NCBI RefSeq assembly: GCF_034298135.1
Contig: NZ_CP139575.1
Location: 1,054,001-1,118,000 of the forward strand
DNA: 64,000 nt
Origin: Lactobacillus acidophilus
GTDB taxonomy: Bacteria > Bacillota > Bacilli > Lactobacillales > Lactobacillaceae
Direction of reading: 5' to 3'
The translations under genes were made by a program, and so were the position numbers. Under the pieces are notes generated by a model that was not told where the DNA came from, did no database searches, and saw only the letters and a list, made by a program, of their open reading frames with translations. This document shows, in pieces, positions 3,740-18,682 of the stretch (position 1 is its first letter; every line of letters starts with the position of its first letter).

Positions 3740-4248
3740 TAATCATCCAACCCCTTAATAAATTGGTCGACTAAATCCTTTTGGTCTTCAGCAGATAAAT
3801 TCTTGGCAATAACTTTTTCAGCAATTGCTACAGAAATATCAGCAACTTGATCACGTGCAGCATCCAAAGCATCTGATTTAGCTTTAGCAGCTTCTTCATT
3901 TGCTTTTTTACGAATAGCTGCAGCATCTTCATTTGCACTAGCTACAATTTCTTTGCTTGTATTTTGCGCATTAGTTTTAGCGTCAGAGAGAATCTGTGTT
4001 GCTTCTTGTCTTGAGTTCTTCAAGGCAGCTTCACGCTCATTAGCAAGCGTTTCAGCTTTTTTACGATCACTTGCAGCTGAATCCAAGTCACTAATAATTT
4101 TTTGTCGCCGTTTTTCCATCATGTCTGATACTGGACCCCAGGCATAATGCTTAATCAATAGCATCAAGATGGCAAAACAAAGTAAATACCAAATAGCATT
4201 ACCTAGGTAAATATGATGTGAGGCGGCAAACAATGTTTGAATAGTCAT
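3739..4248 (-). CDS. atpF: ATP synthase Fo subunit b
   Basis: Membrane-anchored peripheral stalk. A single N-terminal membrane segment (about residues 15-33, [19 protein letters not shown]) is followed by a long, highly charged, Ala-rich coiled coil that dimerises and reaches up to F1. The 169-residue length is normal for the family. It lies between atpE and atpH in the operon. Confidence 0.97.
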
Positions 4249-4304: not shown

Positions 4305-5272
<968 letters not shown>

Positions 5273-11147: not shown

Positions 11148-11152
11148 AACTG

Positions 11153-11182
11153 AAATGATCCGTAAGATCTTACGGATCATTT
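11153..11182 (+). terminator. murT terminator
   Basis: A perfect 30-nt palindrome containing GATCCGTAAGATCTTACGGATC is followed by TTTTTT, just after the murT stop. Confidence 0.88.
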
Positions 11183-11187
11183 TTTGT

Positions 11188-11220
11188 ACAAAAAAAGGCT
11201 ACGACCCATGTCGTAGCCTT
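11188..11220 (-). terminator. native terminator of the tRNA-Glu/tRNA-Gln operon, now displaced
   Basis: An 11-bp stem, AAGGCTACGAC (11195-11205) with GTCGTAGCCTT (11210-11220), reads leftward into a seven-T run. It lies directly beyond the left att copy. Removing the element would place it a few bases after the tRNA-Gln 3' end, so it was probably the original terminator of those tRNAs. Confidence 0.7.
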
Positions 11221-11226
11221 AATTAT

Positions 11227-11244
11227 ATTGAGATATTGGGGCTC
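11227..11244. repeat. attL, left attachment core of the integrated element
   Basis: The 18-base sequence ATTGAGATATTGGGGCTC is repeated exactly at 18532-18549, where it forms the 3' end of an intact tRNA-Gln gene. Here it stands alone. The following bases only faintly resemble the rest of the tRNA (GCCTTGGTATATCTGCA against GCCTTACC..GGCTATATCTCA), suggesting an eroded tRNA-like arm in the element. Confidence 0.85.
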
Positions 11245-11317
11245 AAATCACATCGTCTCAATGCCTTGGTATATCTGCATTTTTAAACCTAAAAAATAAT
11301 ATTGATTAGAATATTGA

Positions 11318-12465
11318 TTATTTACCCTCTACCAGACGCACAAGCTTGTTAGCTGTATCCTTTTTCTGGTCGTCTGTAACGTGGGTATAAATATTCATGG
11401 TCGTGTTAGTCCTAAACGTGCTTTAACTTCATTCATTGATGCACCAGCTTCAAATAATAAAGAAGCGTGAGTATGTCTAAAGCCGTGAATTTTAATTCTT
11501 CTTAAATCGTACTTCTTACAAATAGCCACATTCCACTGCCGTGGTTTTGACATTGAAAGATAACCATTATTAATAGTAGGAAAAAGCAAATTATCAATAT
11601 TTAAGAAGTTGTAGCCTAACTCAAGCATGGTCTTTTGTTGCATTAACCGCCACTCTTTTAAATATTCCATTGTGGTTGCATCCATGTCTAAAGTTCTGAA
11701 ACTATTTTCAGTTTTAGGCGTGTCTTCATACAATTCATTATTTAAACCAACGGTAACATCCTTATTAATGCTAATAGTATTATCCTTAAAATTAATATCC
11801 GACCATTTAAGTGCCAGTGCCTCACCTTTACGCATCCCTGAATAAGCTAACAATCTAAAGAAAACAAAATACTTGAAGTTGTATTCTTTTGCATTCCTTA
11901 GAAAGGTGTTTAATTCATCCTTTGAGTAAAAGTCGGTGAATGGTTTAGGTTCATTTTTAGCTTTAGGTGGGATAACCTTATTCATTGGATTCTTACTAAT
12001 CAGTTCTAAATTATTGATGCCGTAGTTCAAAACATTATTCGTATAACGCATGAACCGCTTATAAGTCTTAGGTGCATCATTAAACCAAATATTTACGGCT
12101 TTCTGACAGTCTAGAACGGTTAATTTATCAATATACTTACTACCTAATTGCTTTAGGATATGGTCTTCAAAATAACGTGTAGTAGTAGCATATGTGCTAG
12201 TCTTAACGGTTTCACGATAAAGCTTAAGCCACATTTCATACAGCTTATTAAAAGTAATATGCCCTTTACTTTCTGGGATATACTCACCCTTAATTATTTT
12301 AAGTTGATAGTTTAAATATGCCTCTTGTGCTTCTTTCTTTGATTTATAGCCTTGTTTTCTAATTTGAATTGAATGTCCTGTTGTTTCATCAACACCCACA
12401 TATAAATTAAACCCATAACGTTTTTTACCACTAGGCGTGGTGTATTCCTTAATATCATTATTCAT
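11318..12465 (-). pseudogene. int: phage-type tyrosine integrase, frameshifted before the catalytic Tyr
   Basis: Site-specific recombinase expected to insert and excise the element. An Arm-DNA-binding domain (residues 1-60), a SAM-like core-binding domain and the catalytic domain with SGMRKGEAL (Arg I) and HGFRHTHASLL (His II/Arg II) are present. The frame then reads ARLGLTRP and stops at 11395. The next frame continues NTTMNIYTHVTDDQKK and onward to a stop at 11318-11320, which supplies the nucleophile Tyr. Inserting ten bases after GGAC would restore LGHSDINTTMNIYTHV, the common family sequence, so a 10-nt deletion removed the catalytic His and put the Tyr out of frame. Inactive as read, unless it is a sequencing error. 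Confidence 0.85.
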
Positions 12466-12491
12466 GTTAATAACCTCTTTTAATTAGTACG

Positions 12492-12522
12492 TGTGCAGGT
12501 AGACTAATCTTAAATATTTAAC
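12492..12522 (+). repeat. 31-bp element repeat, copy 1
   Basis: Begins TGTGCAGGTAGACTAATCTT. It matches 14658-14688 at 29 of 31 bases and an inverted copy at 18322-18352 with all differences transitions. It lies 27 bp upstream of the integrase start. Candidate integrase arm site or binding site of an element regulator. Confidence 0.7.
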
Positions 12523-12537
12523 ATGAATTGAATATGT

Positions 12538-12562
12538 GGGTTGCCTCATTTTAGGGCAACCC
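12538..12562. other. hairpin between repressor and integrase genes
   Basis: Stem GGGTTGCC (12538-12545) with GGCAACCC (12555-12562) and a 9-nt loop. There is no T run on either side, so it is not a standard intrinsic terminator. It lies downstream of the repressor gene and upstream of int. Confidence 0.45.
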
Positions 12563-12630
12563 GTGGGATGCAGGTTTAATAATTATCAGTTAATTAGAAC
12601 GAACTAGGCTTTAGAATCACGATGTCAGCA

Positions 12631-13182
12631 TTAAGAATTGTGTTTCATTAAATTTAATGCTCGCTTAGTTTCTGGGCTTAAACTAGCAAAGAAAATAGCA
12701 TTAATAATTAATTCTTTAATATCGCTATCGCTGTATTTATCCTTAGTAGTTAACAGTCGATTAACTGATTTATCATTAAAAATAAAATTGAAGTTAGTTT
12801 TCCAAAAATCTAAGTCAGTATCTTTCGGGATACTGATTTTATTTTGCTCACAATATTTTTCAATTTCTTCTTTAGCAGATAACACAGGATTAGTGAACGG
12901 TGGTTCAATCTCATAATCTTTGGTATATGGTTCTTTGTAAGCATTATCCAAACATTTATAAATATGCTCTTTTGAATAACCATGGCCCTTTAAATAGTCC
13001 ACTGAAACATTAAAGAAGTTAGCCAATGCTTGCCACGTGGGTTCGTTGGGCTGTCTATCCCCTCTTTCGTATTTAGCTAAAGCATCAGGGGTTAACGTTA
13101 AAAGATCATTGCTTTTTAAAAGTTCTGTAGTTTTCTTAAGTGATAATTTTTTATTTTCCCTTATTTCTCTTATTCTATTCAT
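12631..13182 (-). CDS. Xre-family transcriptional repressor (CI-like)
   Basis: Likely immunity repressor of the element. The N-terminal HTH (about residues 1-65: MNRIREIRENKKLSLKKTTE ... LAKYERGDRQPNEPTWQALA ... FNVSVDYLKG) is a typical Cro/CI fold, followed by a helical C-terminal region without an S24 peptidase motif. The start at ATG 13180-13182 follows AAAGAGGTG; an upstream in-frame start at 13215 would lie before that site. Its promoter faces away from the early rightward promoter, and three operator-like palindromes lie in between. Lack of an S24 domain suggests induction by an antirepressor rather than RecA-dependent self-cleavage (inference). Confidence 0.88.
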   Translation of the reverse strand: MNRIREIRENKKLSLKKTTELLKSNDLLTLTPDALAKYERGDRQPNEPTWQALANFFNVSVDYLKGHGYSKEHIYKCLDNAYKEPYTKDYEIEPPFTNPVLSAKEEIEKYCEQNKISIPKDTDLDFWKTNFNFIFNDKSVNRLLTTKDKYSDSDIKELIINAIFFASLSPETKRALNLMKHNS

Positions 13183-13228
13183 TTTAATATTCACCTCTTT
13201 AGCATATAATAGCATTTTTTATTTAAAA

Positions 13229-13256
13229 ATAATACATTTTCGTATTGATTATACAA
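13229..13256 (-). promoter_or_regulatory. repressor-gene promoter
   Basis: On the minus strand TTGTAT (13251-13256) and TATTAT (13229-13234) are 16 nt apart. The spacer contains most of operator-like site 1. Confidence 0.6.
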
Positions 13257-13297
13257 AAATGTATTGTATAATTTACTCATGAATACAAAATTGTATT
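13231..13297. promoter_or_regulatory. three operator-like palindromes in the divergent control region
   Basis: Site 1 AATACATTTTCGTATT (13231-13246), site 2 ATACAAAAATGTATT (13251-13265) and site 3 AATACAAAATTGTATT (13282-13297) share the pattern AATACa-n-tGTATT. Site 2 lies in the spacer of the rightward promoter and sites 1-2 cover the leftward one, as expected for a repressor that silences early genes and controls itself. Confidence 0.75.
13245..13272 (+). promoter_or_regulatory. early rightward promoter of the element
   Basis: TTGATT (13245-13250), a 16-nt spacer and consensus TATAAT (13267-13272). Operator-like site 2 occupies the spacer. Confidence 0.72.
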
Positions 13298-13316
13298 GAT
13301 GAAAGGAAGTACAAAA

Positions 13317-13523
13317 ATGAGTAAAGAATATTTAACTTTAAAAGAGGCTATGTCATACATGGGATTCACCACGTACGACAGTTTAAGAAAAGTTATTAAG
13401 CTAGGATTACCTGTAATTAAGTTCGGTAACTCTAAGCGCATTAGCAAAACCGCTATTGATGATTTCATGCAATCCCACACGGCGGTAGTGCATCCCACAA
13501 AGGAGTTGGTAAACAATGACTAA
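13317..13523 (+). CDS. small HTH protein, excisionase-like
   Basis: The 68-residue product has a winged-helix/MerR-like DNA-binding region of the excisionase family (LTLKEAMSYMGFTTYDSLRK ... LPVIKFGNSKRISKTAIDDF). It is the first gene after the early rightward promoter, the usual place for Xis or an Alp-type regulator. The ATG at 13317 follows AAAGGAAG; an upstream in-frame ATG at 13296 overlaps an operator-like site and has no ribosome binding site. Confidence 0.75.
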   Translation: MSKEYLTLKEAMSYMGFTTYDSLRKVIKLGLPVIKFGNSKRISKTAIDDFMQSHTAVVHPTKELVNND

Positions 13524-13734
13524 TTACAGTTCAGACGGTTCAAACGTGGTTGATCGTTGGTATAAAGACGGTTACCTCTATTGTGCATTTGTAGACGGTA
13601 CGATTATGGAATATGGACGAAATAAGATTCCTGAAAGATATATAGAGGTTATGAGAAATGAACTAGCCCAAACCGTCTACGACTTGCAAGGTGGTAAATA
13701 TGATTTTGACGACTTTGAACCCGAGGAGGCTTAA
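13516..13734 (+). CDS. hypothetical protein of the element
   Basis: A 72-residue acidic protein (C terminus GKYDFDDFEPEEA) with an aromatic-rich start (VDRWYKDGYLYCAFVDG). No family recognised. It overlaps the preceding gene by 8 nt and has an AAAGGAG site. It belongs to the early rightward operon, so a small regulator or DNA mimic is conceivable, but nothing in the sequence shows function. Confidence 0.7.
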   Translation: MTNYSSDGSNVVDRWYKDGYLYCAFVDGTIMEYGRNKIPERYIEVMRNELAQTVYDLQGGKYDFDDFEPEEA

Positions 13735-13737
13735 ACA

Positions 13738-14121
13738 ATGAACAGCAAATTAGTTATAGATATGCAAAGAGACCTACGAGCACATGGCATTAATTTAAGC
13801 CTTGAACAAACCTATCAGCATTTACTAAAAGCTAATTTTATTGATGCCGAGGGTGAACCGACCGAGTGGGCTATTAAAAATGGTTATGTGGGCGTTGAAT
13901 ATTCCTACCCACAAGGGATGCCTACGCAAGATGAAAGCGACATTTTAACGGTACTGGGATATTTACCGCAAAGCGCTATTCACCATAACGACTGTCCTAA
14001 TTTATCTGGGATTGATAAAGAACCACTTAAAAAGGCTATCAAACAAGCTTTACATGATGATGCTATTTCTATAAACGGACGAAAAAAATGGAAAAATGTT
14101 TTATTAGATTTGGAGGCTTAA
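13738..14121 (+). CDS. hypothetical protein of the element
   Basis: A 127-residue protein with an N-terminal helical stretch and a central Tyr/Pro-rich part (GVEYSYPQGMPTQDESDIL). Family not recognised. It is preceded by a GAGGAGG site overlapping the end of the previous gene and followed 3 nt later by the next gene, so it is part of one early transcript. Confidence 0.7.
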   Translation: MNSKLVIDMQRDLRAHGINLSLEQTYQHLLKANFIDAEGEPTEWAIKNGYVGVEYSYPQGMPTQDESDILTVLGYLPQSAIHHNDCPNLSGIDKEPLKKAIKQALHDDAISINGRKKWKNVLLDLEA

Positions 14122-14124
14122 ACC

Positions 14125-14349
14125 ATGAACAATGAAATTAAATTGCACCAAGCATTATATGAAATGAAAGCCGTAGCGGAACAGCTTTACCCACTTTATA
14201 AAGCATTAACAGATGAGATTGAACAATTAACAGAAGATGACCCCAACGACCCTATCACAACCAAAAAGACGCTTAAATATTTAAGTGAAGATGTTTTCGA
14301 CTTAGGGACAAGATTAATAGATAACGCTAAATCAATAGAAAAGGAATGA
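14125..14349 (+). CDS. hypothetical helical protein of the element
   Basis: A 74-residue, acidic, probably all-helical protein (ALYEMKAVAEQLYPLYKAL ... KSIEKE). No known family recognised. A GGAGG site lies at the end of the preceding gene. Its stop overlaps an in-frame ATG of the following broken HTH gene. Confidence 0.68.
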   Translation: MNNEIKLHQALYEMKAVAEQLYPLYKALTDEIEQLTEDDPNDPITTKKTLKYLSEDVFDLGTRLIDNAKSIEKE

Positions 14350-14354
14350 TAACC

Positions 14355-14646
14355 ATGGAATTTAAATTAGATGAACAGCAAGAAACAGAAATCAAAACCT
14401 ATGTATTAAATGTGGTTAAAGATGCAATCAAGCAAGCCTTACTTAAACCGCAAAGAAATTGCCAAATATTTTGGCGTTGCCGATTCAACTATTACATACT
14501 GGGCTTCTTTAGGAATGCCGGTGGCTAATATTGACGGTCGCAAACTCTATGGAAAAGCAAGTATAACAGCGTGGCTTGCGTCCCATGAGATGCCGTCCCA
14601 AAAGCAAAATAAAAAGCCCGTAACTATGGGCGTAGTTAAGGACTAA
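14355..14646 (+). pseudogene. HTH/excisionase-like gene split by a 4-bp tandem duplication
   Basis: The first frame reads MEFKLDEQQETEIKTYVLNV VKDAIKQALL and then runs out of phase to a stop at 14528. The second frame, from 14410, reads KPYLNRKEIAKYFGVADSTI and continues TYWASLGMPVANIDGRKLYG, a clear HTH_17-type domain. The break falls at CAAGCAAG (14429-14436). Removing one CAAG unit joins the frames as VKDAIKPYLNRKEIAKYFGV, which is the expected layout of this phage family. The second part could still be made from the internal ATG at 14410, which would lack the N-terminal helix. Confidence 0.72.
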
Positions 14647-14657
14647 AGAATATTAAT

Positions 14658-14688
14658 TGTGCAGGTAGATTAATCTTAAGTATTTAAC
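14658..14688 (+). repeat. 31-bp element repeat, copy 2
   Basis: Begins TGTGCAGGTAGATTAATCTT. It matches copy 1 at 29 of 31 bases and contains the perfect palindrome AGATTAATCT. It lies about 75 nt upstream of the primase gene. Confidence 0.7.
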
Positions 14689-14763
14689 TAAAAGGTGGTG
14701 GTTTAAATTGAGTTACATATAATATCGGATTATTAATAATTTATGTGAAAGGAACTTTTGTAC

Positions 14764-16260
14764 ATGGAAAATATAACACCTAAATTAGATCAAAAACTTG
14801 TAGATGAATTTAATAATTCTCCTATTAGTTTAACATACCTTAAAAGTATATTGAGAAATGATGGTCATGAGAGAAGGCAACTATTAAAAGATAAAAGCGA
14901 TAAGAAAGACAAGAATATTATTTTGCCTATGAGAACAGTAACAAATATTCTTGAATACCACATTATTTGGGCTGTTTTAGGCAACGACAAAGAAGATTGG
15001 CAAAAATCGGCTTTATATTTTTACAATACTGAAAGTGGTATCTATGAAAAAGATTCATTATTGATTGAAGAATTGATAAATACAGTTGAGCCACAAATTA
15101 CAGAAAGAAATATAAAAGAAGTTAAATCTAAACTTAGGATTGAGAGCAAAAGGCTTTTTCTAACAAATGACCCTAATTTATATGCTTTAGGCAATGGAAT
15201 TTTTGATGCTAAAAAGCATAAGCTATTAGCATATTCCCCTAAATGTGTTTTTACATCTAAGATAGCTGTAAATTATAATCCTAATGCTCAAGAGCCCCGA
15301 TTTGATAATTGGAGTTTTAGCAAGTGGATTAATGAAGATATAGCAGAAAACAAGACAGACAAAATAAAACTTATTTGGCAAACAATTAAGGCTGTAGTGA
15401 ATAGTAATTATAGTTATCATTCCGCCGTTTTCTTGATTGATAGTAAAAAAGGGTCAGCAGGTAAAGGAACGTTTGAAGCATTATTAGAAAATATTGCGGG
15501 ACCAAATAATTACGCAACGATTAAACTGAATCAATTTGAAAAAGCACCAATTTTAGCGACTATAGTAAACAAACCACTTGTAATAGGCGATGATAATGAC
15601 CCTAACAGGGCGGTTGATTCAAGCGAAAATTTCAAAAGTGCGTCAACTGGTGACCCTATTGTTATCAATGACAAATTTGAAAAGGCTTATTCTTATAAAC
15701 CTACATGCTTAATCGTTCAATCGTTAAACGCTTTACCCGTCTTTAAAGATAATACTGATGCCACATATCGGCGTATTAGAGTAATTAAATTCAACAAGAA
15801 ATATATTGAAAATGCTAAAAATAGAAGGGTCAAAGATGAATACATTTCTAATAAAGAATTACTGGAATGGATTGTTAAAAAAGCGATTGATGTAAAAATT
15901 GATGGTGTAATGATTCGTACACAAGAAAGTAATGAGATTTTAAAAGAAAACCAGATAGACAGCGATTCATTTCTTCAATTTACTAATGATATTATTGTTC
16001 CTACAACCAATGGCTATAGATTTAAAGATGACACCTATCAAGCCTATAAAAAATGGTTTGAAATTACAGGTCATCAATTTGGACTTGAAACTTACAGAGG
16101 CTTTAATAAAAGGATGCGTGAAGACATTGGATTAAAACAAAGTAGAAAAATGAGAAACGGTCGCAAAATGGATGTTTGGTTAAACATTCAATTAAAAACC
16201 GATTCGGGTAATTTGAACGATATGGACTTAAAAGACTTGAATGGACGCGAAAATAATTAG
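14764..16260 (+). CDS. phage/plasmid primase-helicase, P4/D5-like
   Basis: Replication protein of the element, a superfamily 3 helicase. The 498-residue protein has an N-terminal D5-type region (to about residue 190), Walker A SKKGSAGKGTF (about 228-238), Walker B KPLVIGDDND and an arginine-finger/sensor region ATYRRIRVIKF. A C-terminal winged-helix-like part (residues 400-480) probably binds DNA. There is no N-terminal primase catalytic domain, so it may use host primase or act as helicase only. ATG 14764 follows AAAGGAAC; the in-frame TTG at 14758 is too close to that site. Confidence 0.85.
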   Translation: MENITPKLDQKLVDEFNNSPISLTYLKSILRNDGHERRQLLKDKSDKKDKNIILPMRTVTNILEYHIIWAVLGNDKEDWQKSALYFYNTESGIYEKDSLLIEELINTVEPQITERNIKEVKSKLRIESKRLFLTNDPNLYALGNGIFDAKKHKLLAYSPKCVFTSKIAVNYNPNAQEPRFDNWSFSKWINEDIAENKTDKIKLIWQTIKAVVNSNYSYHSAVFLIDSKKGSAGKGTFEALLENIAGPNNYATIKLNQFEKAPILATIVNKPLVIGDDNDPNRAVDSSENFKSASTGDPIVINDKFEKAYSYKPTCLIVQSLNALPVFKDNTDATYRRIRVIKFNKKYIENAKNRRVKDEYISNKELLEWIVKKAIDVKIDGVMIRTQESNEILKENQIDSDSFLQFTNDIIVPTTNGYRFKDDTYQAYKKWFEITGHQFGLETYRGFNKRMREDIGLKQSRKMRNGRKMDVWLNIQLKTDSGNLNDMDLKDLNGRENN

Positions 16261-16480
16261 TTTAAGTCCATGCTAAAGCCTTGATATTACTACAATATAT
16301 ATACTTTGGACTTAAAAGACATAAATATAATAAAAGTAAAACAAGTCAAATAAAATTTAACATATATATAGTTTAAAAAAGAACGTGTTTTTAGCGTCCT
16401 TTGTGTCCTGTTCTTACAGTCCCAACGCTTTACAACTTTGTTAAATAAGTCCAATGGACGTGTTTTTACGTCCACACTTT
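16222..16480. repeat. cluster of GGAC/GTCC motifs, candidate replication origin
   Basis: About ten copies of GGAC or its complement GTCC lie in some 260 bp of AT-rich DNA at the end of and just after the primase gene. They include TGGACTTAAAAGAC twice (16223-16236 and 16307-16320) and AGTCCAATGGACGTG near 16449. The stretch from 16261 to 16560 contains no convincing gene. The position next to a replication gene suggests iteron-like origin repeats; this is inference. Confidence 0.45.
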
Positions 16481-16560
16481 GTATTTGAATTAAACAACTC
16501 GCCAAAACAACAAACCACCTCTACGCCAATAGCAGTGGTCTGCTAGAAAGAAAATTACTT

Positions 16561-16872
16561 ATGACACATAGAAGAGCAAAAATAACTAATCCTGATTCCA
16601 TACAGTCTAACATTATGCAATTCATTAAAGAAACTGAATGTAATTACGGTCATACCATAGCCAGAAATATGGCTAATGATTTAACACGACTGGCAGTTAT
16701 AGCTCAAACAAACGATTATTTAAGCGAACTAGATTCGCCACGATTTATTATTAGGTTCAAGCTTCATCCCACTACTGGTAGGTTAATCGTTGAAACCATT
16801 AACGACAAAATGAAAGGCTATCGTTATACATGTTCACCAGATCGTATACATAGACATCGAGCAAAATATTAA
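16561..16872 (+). CDS. hypothetical protein of the element
   Basis: A 103-residue basic protein with many Arg and His residues (MTHRRAKITNPDS ... SPDRIHRHRAKY), so it may bind nucleic acid. No family recognised. It stands alone after the putative origin, preceded by a weak AGAAAG site, and ends at a clear terminator. Codon use resembles the rest of the element. Confidence 0.55.
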   Translation: MTHRRAKITNPDSIQSNIMQFIKETECNYGHTIARNMANDLTRLAVIAQTNDYLSELDSPRFIIRFKLHPTTGRLIVETINDKMKGYRYTCSPDRIHRHRAKY

Positions 16873-16877
16873 TTATT

Positions 16878-16912
16878 AGGTGTATTCCATTCAAGGGATA
16901 CACCTATTTTGT
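16878..16912 (+). terminator. terminator after the rightward genes
   Basis: Stem AGGTGTATTCC with GGGATACACCT (to 16905), then ATTTTGTTAT, 6 nt after the preceding stop. Confidence 0.75.
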
Positions 16913-17067
16913 TATCATGATGTTAAGTGAGACCGATTTAAAATTGAATTGATTTAAAAACTAATGATAATTTCGCTATTGTTTTGAATAAGAGCGGATT
17001 TACTCAACCAATCTTATTTTGGGACTTTAGCTCTACTTATACAAATAAATACTAATATAATTCTCTA

Positions 17068-17098
17068 CCCTTAAAATGACCGTTTTAGGGGCTTTTTA
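17068..17098 (+). terminator. possible terminator in the gene-free stretch
   Basis: Stem CCCTTAAAA (17068-17076) with TTTTAGGGG (17083-17091), then CTTTTTACTT. Confidence 0.5.
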
Positions 17099-17250
17099 CT
17101 TACTTAGAAAACCTTATGTAAACTAAGTTATATTAGTGATTGGGGCGATTTTGATTAATGGCGAATTCGGCACATGCTAGGTGTAGAAAAGTAGAGTTTT
17201 TCGGGGTTTTTAGGTGTGATAAATTGGGAAAAATACGGGATTTCACCAGC

Positions 17251-17271
17251 GTATCTACAGATACGGAGGTA
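17251..17271 (+). repeat. dyad repeat, copy 1
   Basis: CGTATC-TACA-GATACG followed by GAGGT. An identical 21-mer with one change occurs at 17357-17377. Confidence 0.7.
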
Positions 17272-17356
17272 TACCGTTTCTTATTAATGCTTAAATCGGC
17301 GCAATAATTGTTAACAATTGCTAACATTCTAGCTTTTTTAGCTCTACCTATACATA

Positions 17357-17377
17357 CGTATCCACAGATACGGAGGT
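17357..17377 (+). repeat. dyad repeat, copy 2
   Basis: CGTATC-CACA-GATACG followed by GAGGT. The two copies are 106 bp apart and share no gene context. Confidence 0.7.
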
Positions 17378-17787
17378 TTCAATACACCCTCAAAGAACTT
17401 CAGTTAATTTAAAACCTGTCAAAACCTTACTAAAAAATTTCCGCCTTTTTTCCTAATATGGTGGCTTTTTTAACCGTGGCTAATGTAGTACAAACGTTTT
17501 AGCTGCACGCATCGAAGCAATTTAACCCACTGTCAGCAATAGAAAAAAATCAGGTTTATTCAGGTTTTCGCCCTTAAATGTTGCATTCCAAAACCGCAGA
17601 AAAGTTCAGTTTTCGGGGCTTTTTTTTAGGCTAAAAAAATATGTCGCATCCCTTGTGGTATATGGCTTTTAGTCCTATCTGCTTAATTTAAAGCCTGAAC
17701 TATTTTTACACTATTAAGCATAGTCATACTAAATCACTAATAAAATCGCTCTATACCCTCTTAAAATCAATCTGACAGCATACTAAA

Positions 17788-17822
17788 AGCACTAGTAAAT
17801 TACTTACTGGTGCTTATTTTTT
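17788..17822. terminator. terminator between the gene-free stretch and the ArpU-like gene
   Basis: An 11-bp stem, AGCACTAGTAA (17788-17798) with TTACTGGTGCT (17804-17814), T-rich on both outer sides. It can end the leftward gene beside it. Confidence 0.7.
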
Positions 17823-18192
17823 ATTTAAATTCTAACAGTGGATAAACCTTGTTCTTAATCTGTTCCTGTTTAAATATTTCAGTAAATTTTTTAAGAGCTT
17901 GGTTAGCTAAATCGTTGCTTTTACCTTGACTATAACTAATTAATTCTCTTACTTTTATCATGCTTGTACGCTTAACAAACCGCTCTACAATAATCGTTTT
18001 ATAGGGATGCTGTGGCGTGTCTTCAAGTCTATTGATAGTTAACCATGTTACGGCGAAAATATTCCAATAATAGCCCACACGGCTTTTATCCTTTAAATTA
18101 ATTTTGGTGGTTATCTGACTACCTGATAATAAATATAATCTTGGATAGTCTTCTTTAAAAAAATGCCTTACGCCCTTGTTGTATTTAATCAT
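17821..18192 (-). CDS. small protein resembling phage ArpU/RinA-type regulators
   Basis: A 123-residue protein. The pattern INRLEDTPQHPYKTIIVERF ... ELISYSQGKSNDLANQALKK F resembles the sigma-region-4-like helices of phage late regulators of the ArpU/RinA type; this is a weak, by-eye resemblance. It is transcribed opposite to the replication genes and sits next to the right att site. It may act on helper-phage or element promoters (inference). No other function can be seen. Confidence 0.55.
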   Translation of the reverse strand: MIKYNKGVRHFFKEDYPRLYLLSGSQITTKINLKDKSRVGYYWNIFAVTWLTINRLEDTPQHPYKTIIVERFVKRTSMIKVRELISYSQGKSNDLANQALKKFTEIFKQEQIKNKVYPLLEFK

Positions 18193-18252
18193 AATTAAAC
18201 CACATCCTAATGCTTAATGTATTACTTTTAACTATATTTTACCTAAAAATAA

Positions 18253-18276
18253 AACCAACGCTTTTTATCGTTGGTT
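18253..18276 (-). terminator. leftward hairpin upstream of the ArpU-like gene
   Basis: Stem AACCAACG (18253-18260) with CGTTGGTT (18269-18276), followed leftward by TTTTATTTTT. It would stop transcripts entering from the tRNA side. Confidence 0.6.
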
Positions 18277-18321
18277 CATTGGTTATTAACATAAATATGA
18301 TACATGCTTATTATATCATGG

Positions 18322-18352
18322 CTAAACATCTAAGATCAGCCCACCTACACAC
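18322..18352 (-). repeat. 31-bp element repeat, inverted copy 3
   Basis: Read leftward it begins GTGTGTAGGTGGGCTGATCT and aligns to copies 1 and 2 over about 29 bases with seven differences, all transitions. It lies about 180 bp inside attR. Confidence 0.55.
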
Positions 18353-18474
18353 TAAAATAATTTCAACTAGACCAATTTTATATTTTTTGATGCTAGTAAA
18401 TGACAGTCAAAATATTGCTTAGAATATTGTATTATTTTGCTTATTTTCACCTAATTTCAGAAAATCGCAAAAAA

Positions 18475-18524
18475 CAAAAATGCCTTAACACTGGGCTTTT
18501 AAAGCTTTCAGCATTAAGACATTT
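18475..18524 (-). terminator. element-borne terminator serving the tRNA operon
   Basis: Read leftward from tRNA-Gln, AATGTCTTAATGCTG pairs with CAGTGTTAAGGCATT across a short loop, and TTTGTTTTTTG follows. It lies just inside the element, 10-60 nt past the tRNA 3' end, and replaces the native terminator now stranded at 11188-11220. Confidence 0.75.
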
Positions 18525-18531
18525 TCTCAAA

Positions 18532-18549
18532 ATTGAGATATTGGGGCTC
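18532..18549. repeat. attR, right attachment core at the tRNA-Gln 3' end
   Basis: An exact copy of the 18-bp core at 11227-11244. It covers the 3' side of the T arm and the acceptor stem of tRNA-Gln, a usual target of tyrosine integrases. Confidence 0.85.
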
Positions 18550-18605
18550 GAACCCAAACATCCAGGAACCAGAATCCTGTGCCTTACCAATTTGGCTATA
18601 TCTCA
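18533..18605 (-). tRNA. tRNA-Gln (anticodon CUG)
   Basis: Full cloverleaf: acceptor TGAGATA/TATCTCA, D arm GCC..GGC, anticodon arm CAGGA-TTCTGGT-TCCTG with anticodon CTG, and T arm TTGGG-TTCGAGC-CCCAA. The U1-A72 pair agrees with glutamine identity. CCA is not encoded. It reads CAG codons. Its 3' end is supplied by the integrated element's att core. Confidence 0.93.
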
Positions 18606-18610
18606 GTAAA

Positions 18611-18682
18611 TCACCCGTACGAGAATTGAACTCATAACTCCACCTTGAGAGGGTAGCGTCTTAACCATTTGACCAACGGGCG
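18611..18682 (-). tRNA. tRNA-Glu (anticodon CUC)
   Basis: Cloverleaf with acceptor CGCCCGT/ACGGGTG, D arm GTC..GAC, anticodon arm CTACC-CTCTCAA-GGTGG with anticodon CTC, and T arm ATGAG-TTCAATT-CTCGT. It reads GAG codons. It lies 5 nt upstream of tRNA-Gln and is probably co-transcribed with it. Confidence 0.92.

Follow-up and report, generated by a model that had tools for sequence, protein, structure and literature searches.

We describe a 7,323-bp element that lies in a tRNA-Gln gene of Lactobacillus acidophilus and that is, in our judgement, quite probably a compact phage satellite akin to the phage-inducible chromosomal islands (PICIs), in which a candidate array of packaging sites for several helpers replaces an own small terminase subunit (TerS). 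The element occupies positions 11227–18549, both flanking repeats included, of a 64,000-nt stretch of contig NZ_CP139575.1 (positions 1,054,001 to 1,118,000), which we refer to as the window. The proposed packaging-site array is a non-coding block of 0.95 kb at 16873–17820.

Sites resembling terS-embedded sequences in the non-coding block

The comparison set consisted of 17 elements picked from genome neighbourhoods, with borders set by eye. Short matches of the non-coding parts of elements to prophage DNA clustered 200–700 nt before the match to the large terminase subunit (TerL), where 35 of 172 matches fell and 11.0 were expected by length. A reading of this zone as cohesive-end (cos) sites was dropped after gene mapping put most of its strong matches inside terS, and the interpretation therefore changed to packaging (pac) sites embedded in the gene. 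The match between locus L118 and phage phiadh lies upstream of terS, beside the cos that is annotated in the phiadh record.

The terS-internal site has a fixed position at approximately +120 to +145 nt. We used a set of 41 terS genes with families f1 (n = 25), f1b (n = 3), f2 (n = 7) and f3 (n = 5), and counted matches of at least 24 bits. For f1, 70 of 131 matches fell within a single 30-nt bin, +120 to +149 of terS, as did 5 of 17 for f1b; family f2 had 11 of its 26 matches in the +150 bin, and f3 had 14 of 42 at 0 to +59. An ungapped score of at least 17 against the f1 pac interval was reached by 12 of the 17 elements, compared to 1 of 51 scores for control intervals in the same genes. The window block itself scored 19 (f1), 18 (f1b), 21 (f3) and 11 (f2) against the respective pac intervals, with control intervals giving at most 15 for f1, f1b and f3. 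These scores were reached by 1, 1, 0 and 880 of 1000 shuffles and by 0, 0, 3 and 810 of 1000 host segments for f1, f1b, f3 and f2, respectively; f2-type sites are thus absent from the window element.

Twelve terS genes of named phages that had not been used before (seven f1, five f3) served as an independent check. With these, nine of the 17 elements scored at least 17 at the f1 interval, versus 1 of 136 scores across the other eight intervals, and the window element scored 20, with a 20-mer identical to that of phages KC5a and CR28. Position weight matrices (PWMs) were built from terS genes only, using 14 distinct f1 sites and four f1b sites. At a score of at least 12, the f1 PWM found 24 sites in the 19.6 kb of blocks from the 17 elements (1.225 per kb), compared to 0.01–0.04 per kb in control DNA. 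The controls contained one site in 95.2 kb of host loci, two in 75.3 kb of prophage DNA that stops 700 nt short of the TerL match and two in the part of the window beyond the element (56.7 kb); the remaining 6.4 kb of the element had none. Raising the score to at least 16 left 18 sites in the blocks, one in the window outside the element, and none in the host loci, prophage stretches or rest of the element. The f1b PWM gave 14 sites in the blocks versus 3 in host loci, 8 in prophage stretches, 4 in the window outside the element and 1 in the rest of the element. Shuffled blocks had 0.03 (f1) and 0.06 (f1b) sites per kb. Searched as a whole against phage DNA at E-values up to 10, the block gave matches at chance level only.

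An f1 or f1b site scoring at least 12 is present in 15 of the 17 elements, and some relatives carry more variants than the window does. Several copies occur in L117 and in L120, the latter with f1 variants at 2758, 2779 and 2800 and f1b-like sites at 2847 and 2878. Matches of the f1 type were also found around helicase relatives from other genera (L083, L085, L086, L088, L090 and L096), where the element borders are not fixed.

The terS site is a 10-bp direct repeat, with a self-similarity of 0.83 at offset 10 and at most 0.39 at the other offsets from 5 to 14. An offset of 10 does not correspond to whole codons, so the repeat cannot be put down to codon conservation alone. Its half-sites vary in concert, with 0 of 10,000 re-pairings being as good in 24 terS sites and 4 of 10,000 in 23 element sites, although relatedness and the mixing of two subfamilies in the terS set inflate these figures. 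In its sequence, the repeat looks as one would expect of pac embedded in a gene. Such a location of pac, within terS, has been reported for P22 (PMC9611059).

The best site in the window block is an f1 site, GAAAACCTGAATAAACCTGAT, at 17549–17569 on the reverse strand; phages KC5a and CR28 both have its first 20 nt, without mismatch, in terS. The other candidates are all on the forward strand. They include a second, variant f1-type site (17410–17430), an f1b-type site with 20 of 22 positions matching terS in L166 (17307–17328) and, in a weaker class, an f3-type site with 25 of 29 positions matching the start of the L171 terS (17597–17625). Two further f3-like repeats are weak (17187–17211) or weak and doubtful (17073–17097). 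Taken together, the window sites seem to resemble two TerS specificities, perhaps three.

Several points weigh against reading the block as a packaging array of a satellite. The pac intervals were first chosen from the same data, and f1 alone was repeated on independent phages. Since f3 was not reproduced on the five independent f3 phages (window score 14, other positions 9–15, 1 of 17 elements reaching 17), we count it as weak, and its copy at 17073–17097 overlaps a terminator-like hairpin. The window f1b site, with a PWM score of 14.6, is not rare, given the four sites of at least 12 in the 56.7 kb of the window that lie outside the element and the eight in 75.3 kb of prophage DNA. Both the terS genes and the elements are related among themselves, which makes the counts non-independent and, as noted above, inflates the figures for concerted variation. 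Neither f1- nor f1b-type sites of at least 12 were found in the elements of genomes G034 and G047, of which the former has four f2-type matches and the latter none. The strongest match of the first comparison (L116–L128, 170 nt, 7e-15) is far from terS, and that the terS-embedded site works as pac is likewise something we infer. Finally, no such element was found in the phage records or viral contigs searched, and the window element is without an intact integrase.

Of the alternatives, one keeps the satellite and changes the role of the sites, which could be decoys that titrate helper TerS and thereby protect the host or delay the helper, with packaging by other means. We consider this unlikely, if worth keeping in mind. 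The several variant copies in L117 and L120 would suit a sponge no less than a start site, and so would the lack of a detectable TerS gene. However, titration would be slight where good sites number only one or two, which is the case for the window and several of its relatives. Moreover, 165 nt in G030 and 157 nt in G027 resemble the phiadh cos together with the start of terS (63% and 60% identity; E-values of 7e-8 and 1.6e-6), which points to packaging. The same two stretches would also suit the idea that terS genes were once captured and have decayed, leaving the matches as remains without present function, as would the reading of the best window site as GENLNKPD in the terS frame and the f1-type site contained in the annotated terminase gene (orf26) of the Lactococcus element bIL310. 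Yet little beyond ~20 nt matches at the f1 sites, differing specificities stand side by side, the L120 variants are spaced 21 nt apart, the element half-sites co-vary and other terS regions are not enriched, and we regard decayed remains as improbable.

No terminase, structural or transfer genes detected

An earlier note on this DNA, made from the sequence alone, had stated that the element has no capsid, terminase, tail or transfer gene, and protein searches of the element and its relatives agree with this. Querying the 17 elements with 41 TerS and 14 phiadh proteins (tblastn, E-values up to 1e-3) returned only integrase and ArpU matches. The terminase, portal, capsid and tail proteins of phiadh, the one phage used as a probe, matched none of the 17. 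Family phrog_2, which we take to be one TerL family, matched 28 of 32 genomes and never inside an element stretch; its strong matches adjoin terS genes. The sole match in the window's genome (3.7e-6) falls within a 789-aa frame that looks like SecA, and we thus saw no resident helper of that TerL type in this genome.

The note had also favoured a satellite or a minimal integrative plasmid over a prophage remnant. The satellite view gains support from empty integration sites, described below, and from the backbone shared by the relatives, for which we saw no junction with structural genes; neither the element nor its relatives showed leftover genes for capsid, tail or lysis functions. The note had further suggested searching satellite and prophage collections with the primase and the small proteins, and in phage records the best-ranked relatives of the helicase are annotated satellite phages: Streptococcus satellite phages take the first seven places among 715 records, with Lactococcus bIL310 in the best 25 of 715. 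The broken integrase and helix-turn-helix (HTH) genes and the plasmid-like Rep_trans replication proteins of some relatives would fit a defective prophage remnant or an integrative plasmid. However, relatives from other genomes that have a full-length integrase are alike in gene set and size, with no structural genes that we could find, no plasmid record matches, and the proteins include no relaxase or transfer family (origins of transfer, oriT, were not searched); we consider this reading very improbable.

Borders and integration site

The element is flanked by an exact 18-bp direct repeat, ATTGAGATATTGGGGCTC, with the attL core at 11227–11244 and the attR core at 18532–18549, both on the forward strand. 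The right copy lies inside the 3' end of the integration target, tRNA-Gln(ctg), which is encoded on the reverse strand at 18533–18605. The repeat had been pointed out before, and it holds up: both copies are exact, no further copy occurs in the 64-kb window at up to three mismatches (0.04 expected), and it is the sole exact direct repeat of at least 14 nt that links 11150–11400 with 18400–18620. The left neighbour is murT (NCBIfam E-value of 8.3e-164, under that model's curated cut-off). An Rfam scan found two tRNAs and nothing else.

Empty sites were found in relatives, at nine of 30 murT loci, the 30 being those listed for 69 matching genomes. At these nine, a convergent tRNA-Gln follows 71–89 nt past the murT match, and the seven that were read at the sequence level have the core at the tRNA end, in agreement with the prediction of the earlier note. 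The distance to tRNA-Gln was 258 and 482 nt at two other loci and 983–1323 nt at 11, in five of which the tRNA-Gln is not convergent. In the remaining eight, no tRNA-Gln was found in the stretch examined; these include the window's own genome and G004, which are both occupied. The element-free site of G068 (L034, L104) keeps 171 bp between murT and tRNA-Gln that are 87% like the right end of the element, as might follow from the imprecise loss of an element.

Gene content and state of the window copy

The analysis bore out the integrase, repressor, Xis-like gene, small genes, superfamily 3 (SF3) helicase and non-coding repeat stretches that had been listed for the element. The list had left unnamed the gene at the right end (17821–18192, reverse strand), which encodes an ArpU/RinA-like late transcription regulator (phrog_248 'transcriptional activator', 5.5e-8). 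The integrase and a second HTH gene are present, but neither is in an intact frame.

Two genes are encoded on the reverse strand at the left end. The tyrosine integrase (11395–12465) has 356 aa, compared to 385 aa in L019 and L107, and is followed by a Cro/C1-type repressor (12631–13182), which we take to start, like that of L019, with MNRIREIREN, although the ORF could begin at 13215. The genes from here to the non-coding block are on the forward strand. The first encodes an excisionase/AlpA-type HTH protein (13317–13523) with Pfam and NCBIfam matches under the cut-offs (TIGR01764, 24.0 bits versus 28.8). Next are a 72-aa protein of no family (13516–13734; 97% identity in L107), which matched two loci in the genomes searched and nothing in viral contigs, a 127-aa protein (13738–14121) and a 74-aa protein of no family (14125–14349). 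We saw no 127-aa gene in the two elements closest to this one (L019, L107), yet related genes occur in several others (L108, L118–L120), a sign of small-scale gene exchange. The second HTH gene (14356–14646) has weak Nu1/TerS-like and excisionase-like matches, among them phrog_57 (terminase-small-subunit-like, 5e-9), and its product might be a DNA-binding mimic of TerS.

The P4-family SF3 helicase (14764–16260) has no Prim-Pol part, and its only sequence match in the PDB is 7ola, named DNA primase. At the 3' end of the helicase gene, an AT-rich stretch in which GGACTTAAAAGAC occurs twice suggests a putative replication origin (16223–16480, forward strand); L019 has a single copy of GGACTTAAAAGAC. 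The following 103-aa protein (16561–16872) is of no family and had no match in phage records or viral contigs. It is 89% identical between two genomes (L019 6515–6832), versus 83% for the adjoining helicase. A PADLOC scan gave weak matches to the repressor and no others.

The window integrase is 97% identical to the L019 integrase through residue 352 and is then out of frame. This affects its last ~30 residues, and the NIYTHV stretch of its relatives, which presumably holds the catalytic tyrosine, sits in another frame. The second HTH gene is split over two frames, compared to a single 112-aa frame in L019. Because both genes are frame-broken, the window copy is probably stranded and unable to move by itself, unless the frame breaks are sequencing errors; the species is represented by one genome.

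A family of compact elements

Among 75 genomes of the genus, 13 had helicase matches, the window's own included, with a close one in G004 alone (83%). Using the whole element as the query, 39 of the 75 matched (own included), many just in the last ~50–190 nt at the right end. Helicase scans of genome contigs and viral contigs yielded no relatives. All 17 elements share an integrase and a divergent repressor. A second HTH gene is present in 16, not being seen in G012, and an ArpU-like gene in 14, with none seen in G027, G030 and G006. Their replication proteins vary and include SF3/DUF5906, VapE-like, Rep_trans and DnaD-like types. The window element belongs to this family, whose members are compact, often occupy tRNA-Gln and have replication genes that are exchangeable; in the stretches examined for G058, G047, G028, G022, G027 and G006, no tRNA-Gln was found.

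L083, a larger relative from another genus, has a separate Prim-Pol gene, and similar genes occur in L114 and L115. Positions 4177–5690 of L083, and the matching part of L085, include a SocA/Panacea-domain antitoxin-like gene (3.2e-11) that adjoins a protein with hydrophobic stretches; the pair is perhaps toxin-antitoxin or defence cargo. In G034, one element appears at the ends of two contigs (L111, L112), which could reflect tandem copies or a mere assembly artefact.

Relation to known satellites

Criteria for PICIs include a unique and specific attachment site, exclusive genes and gene order, own replication genes together with a conserved origin organisation, specific packaging by an own terS or a cos/pac site, and phage-dependent induction, interference and transfer in particles (PMC6092414). 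The window element has an 18-bp core in tRNA-Gln, a site common to its relatives, with its own integrase broken in this copy. For replication, it has the SF3 helicase and no Prim-Pol gene, with the candidate origin predicted from repeats. No terS was found, and candidate pac-type sites are present. PICIs combine a divergent repressor, an AlpA/Xis-type HTH gene and a replication gene, and they are devoid of structural genes; the element has this gene set and order, and no structural genes were found in it with phiadh proteins and phrog_2 as probes.

Gram-positive PICIs and Streptococcus satellite phages such as Javan204 and Javan621 share with the window element the order of integrase and repressor, regulators and small genes, P4-type helicase and further small genes. 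The two Javan phages are similar in size, their helicases are 28–31% identical to that of the window, and they have a further gene of ~290 aa just upstream of the helicase that is absent here. Unlike them, the window element has a tRNA-Gln site, an ArpU-like gene and terS-like sites in a non-coding block. The Lactobacillus f1 PWM found no site of at least 13 in Javan204 and three in Javan621, all within annotated genes, and we therefore make no claim for Streptococcus. In Lactococcus bIL310, the helicase and integrase are 33% and 30% identical to those of the window. Its annotated terminase contains the internal f1-type site at 13261, whereas the window element has sites only, which suggests how the array originated: the terS gene went, and the site stayed and multiplied. 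Outside the terminase gene, bIL310 (L024) also has an f1b-like site (score 21.6) between annotated genes at 4541.

The PICMIs of Vibrionaceae resemble the window element in their minimal gene set, DUF5906-type primase and lack of terS and capsid-remodelling genes, and headful-like packaging, which we propose for the window element, has been suggested for them (PMC10803314). That source could not identify cos or pac in PICMIs, and its search model consists of int, AlpA, a primase (DUF3987 with DUF5906) and Fis (PMC10803314). The window element has an integrase, an AlpA-like HTH protein below the cut-off and DUF5906, and none of its 10 proteins matched Fis.

Satellite copies of helper packaging signals are also known from EcCICFT073 and SaPIbov4 (PMC6092414) and StCI-301 (PMC13376191). 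In those satellites cos is present in duplicate, putatively so for SaPIbov4 and StCI-301, whereas the window block has several candidate pac-type specificities. The sections available from one review name plasmids with several oriTs and no such packaging arrays (PMC11389934). In the literature searched, which took in few subscription journals and no bioRxiv preprints, satellites had cos, two cos or an own TerS with pac, and none had several pac types. With two-cos satellites already known, what appears to be new here is a candidate array of pac-type sites resembling terS-embedded ones.

Proposed life cycle and implications

If the element is a satellite with a packaging array, its cycle may be drawn from known PICI biology. 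Entry of a helper would lift the repressor, Int and Xis would excise the element, and the SF3 helicase would replicate it from the putative origin at the 3' end of the helicase gene. The helper's own TerS would recognise one of the mimicked pac sites, and concatemers would enter helper capsids by headful packaging. With sites for several TerS specificities, the element could use a wider range of helpers and would need no TerS gene of its own. The ArpU-like protein may have a role in late transcription.

For the family as a whole, we see the case as evenly balanced that Lactobacillaceae satellites have dropped TerS and carry a library of pac signals, some with cos in addition, for many unrelated helpers, with a freely swapped replication gene and a helper range that is readable from DNA. 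If the arrays work, helper range would be predictable from sequence, and the location of pac would be known for a large TerS family of lactobacillus phages. In that case satellites, like multi-oriT plasmids, would be elements with more than one exit route.

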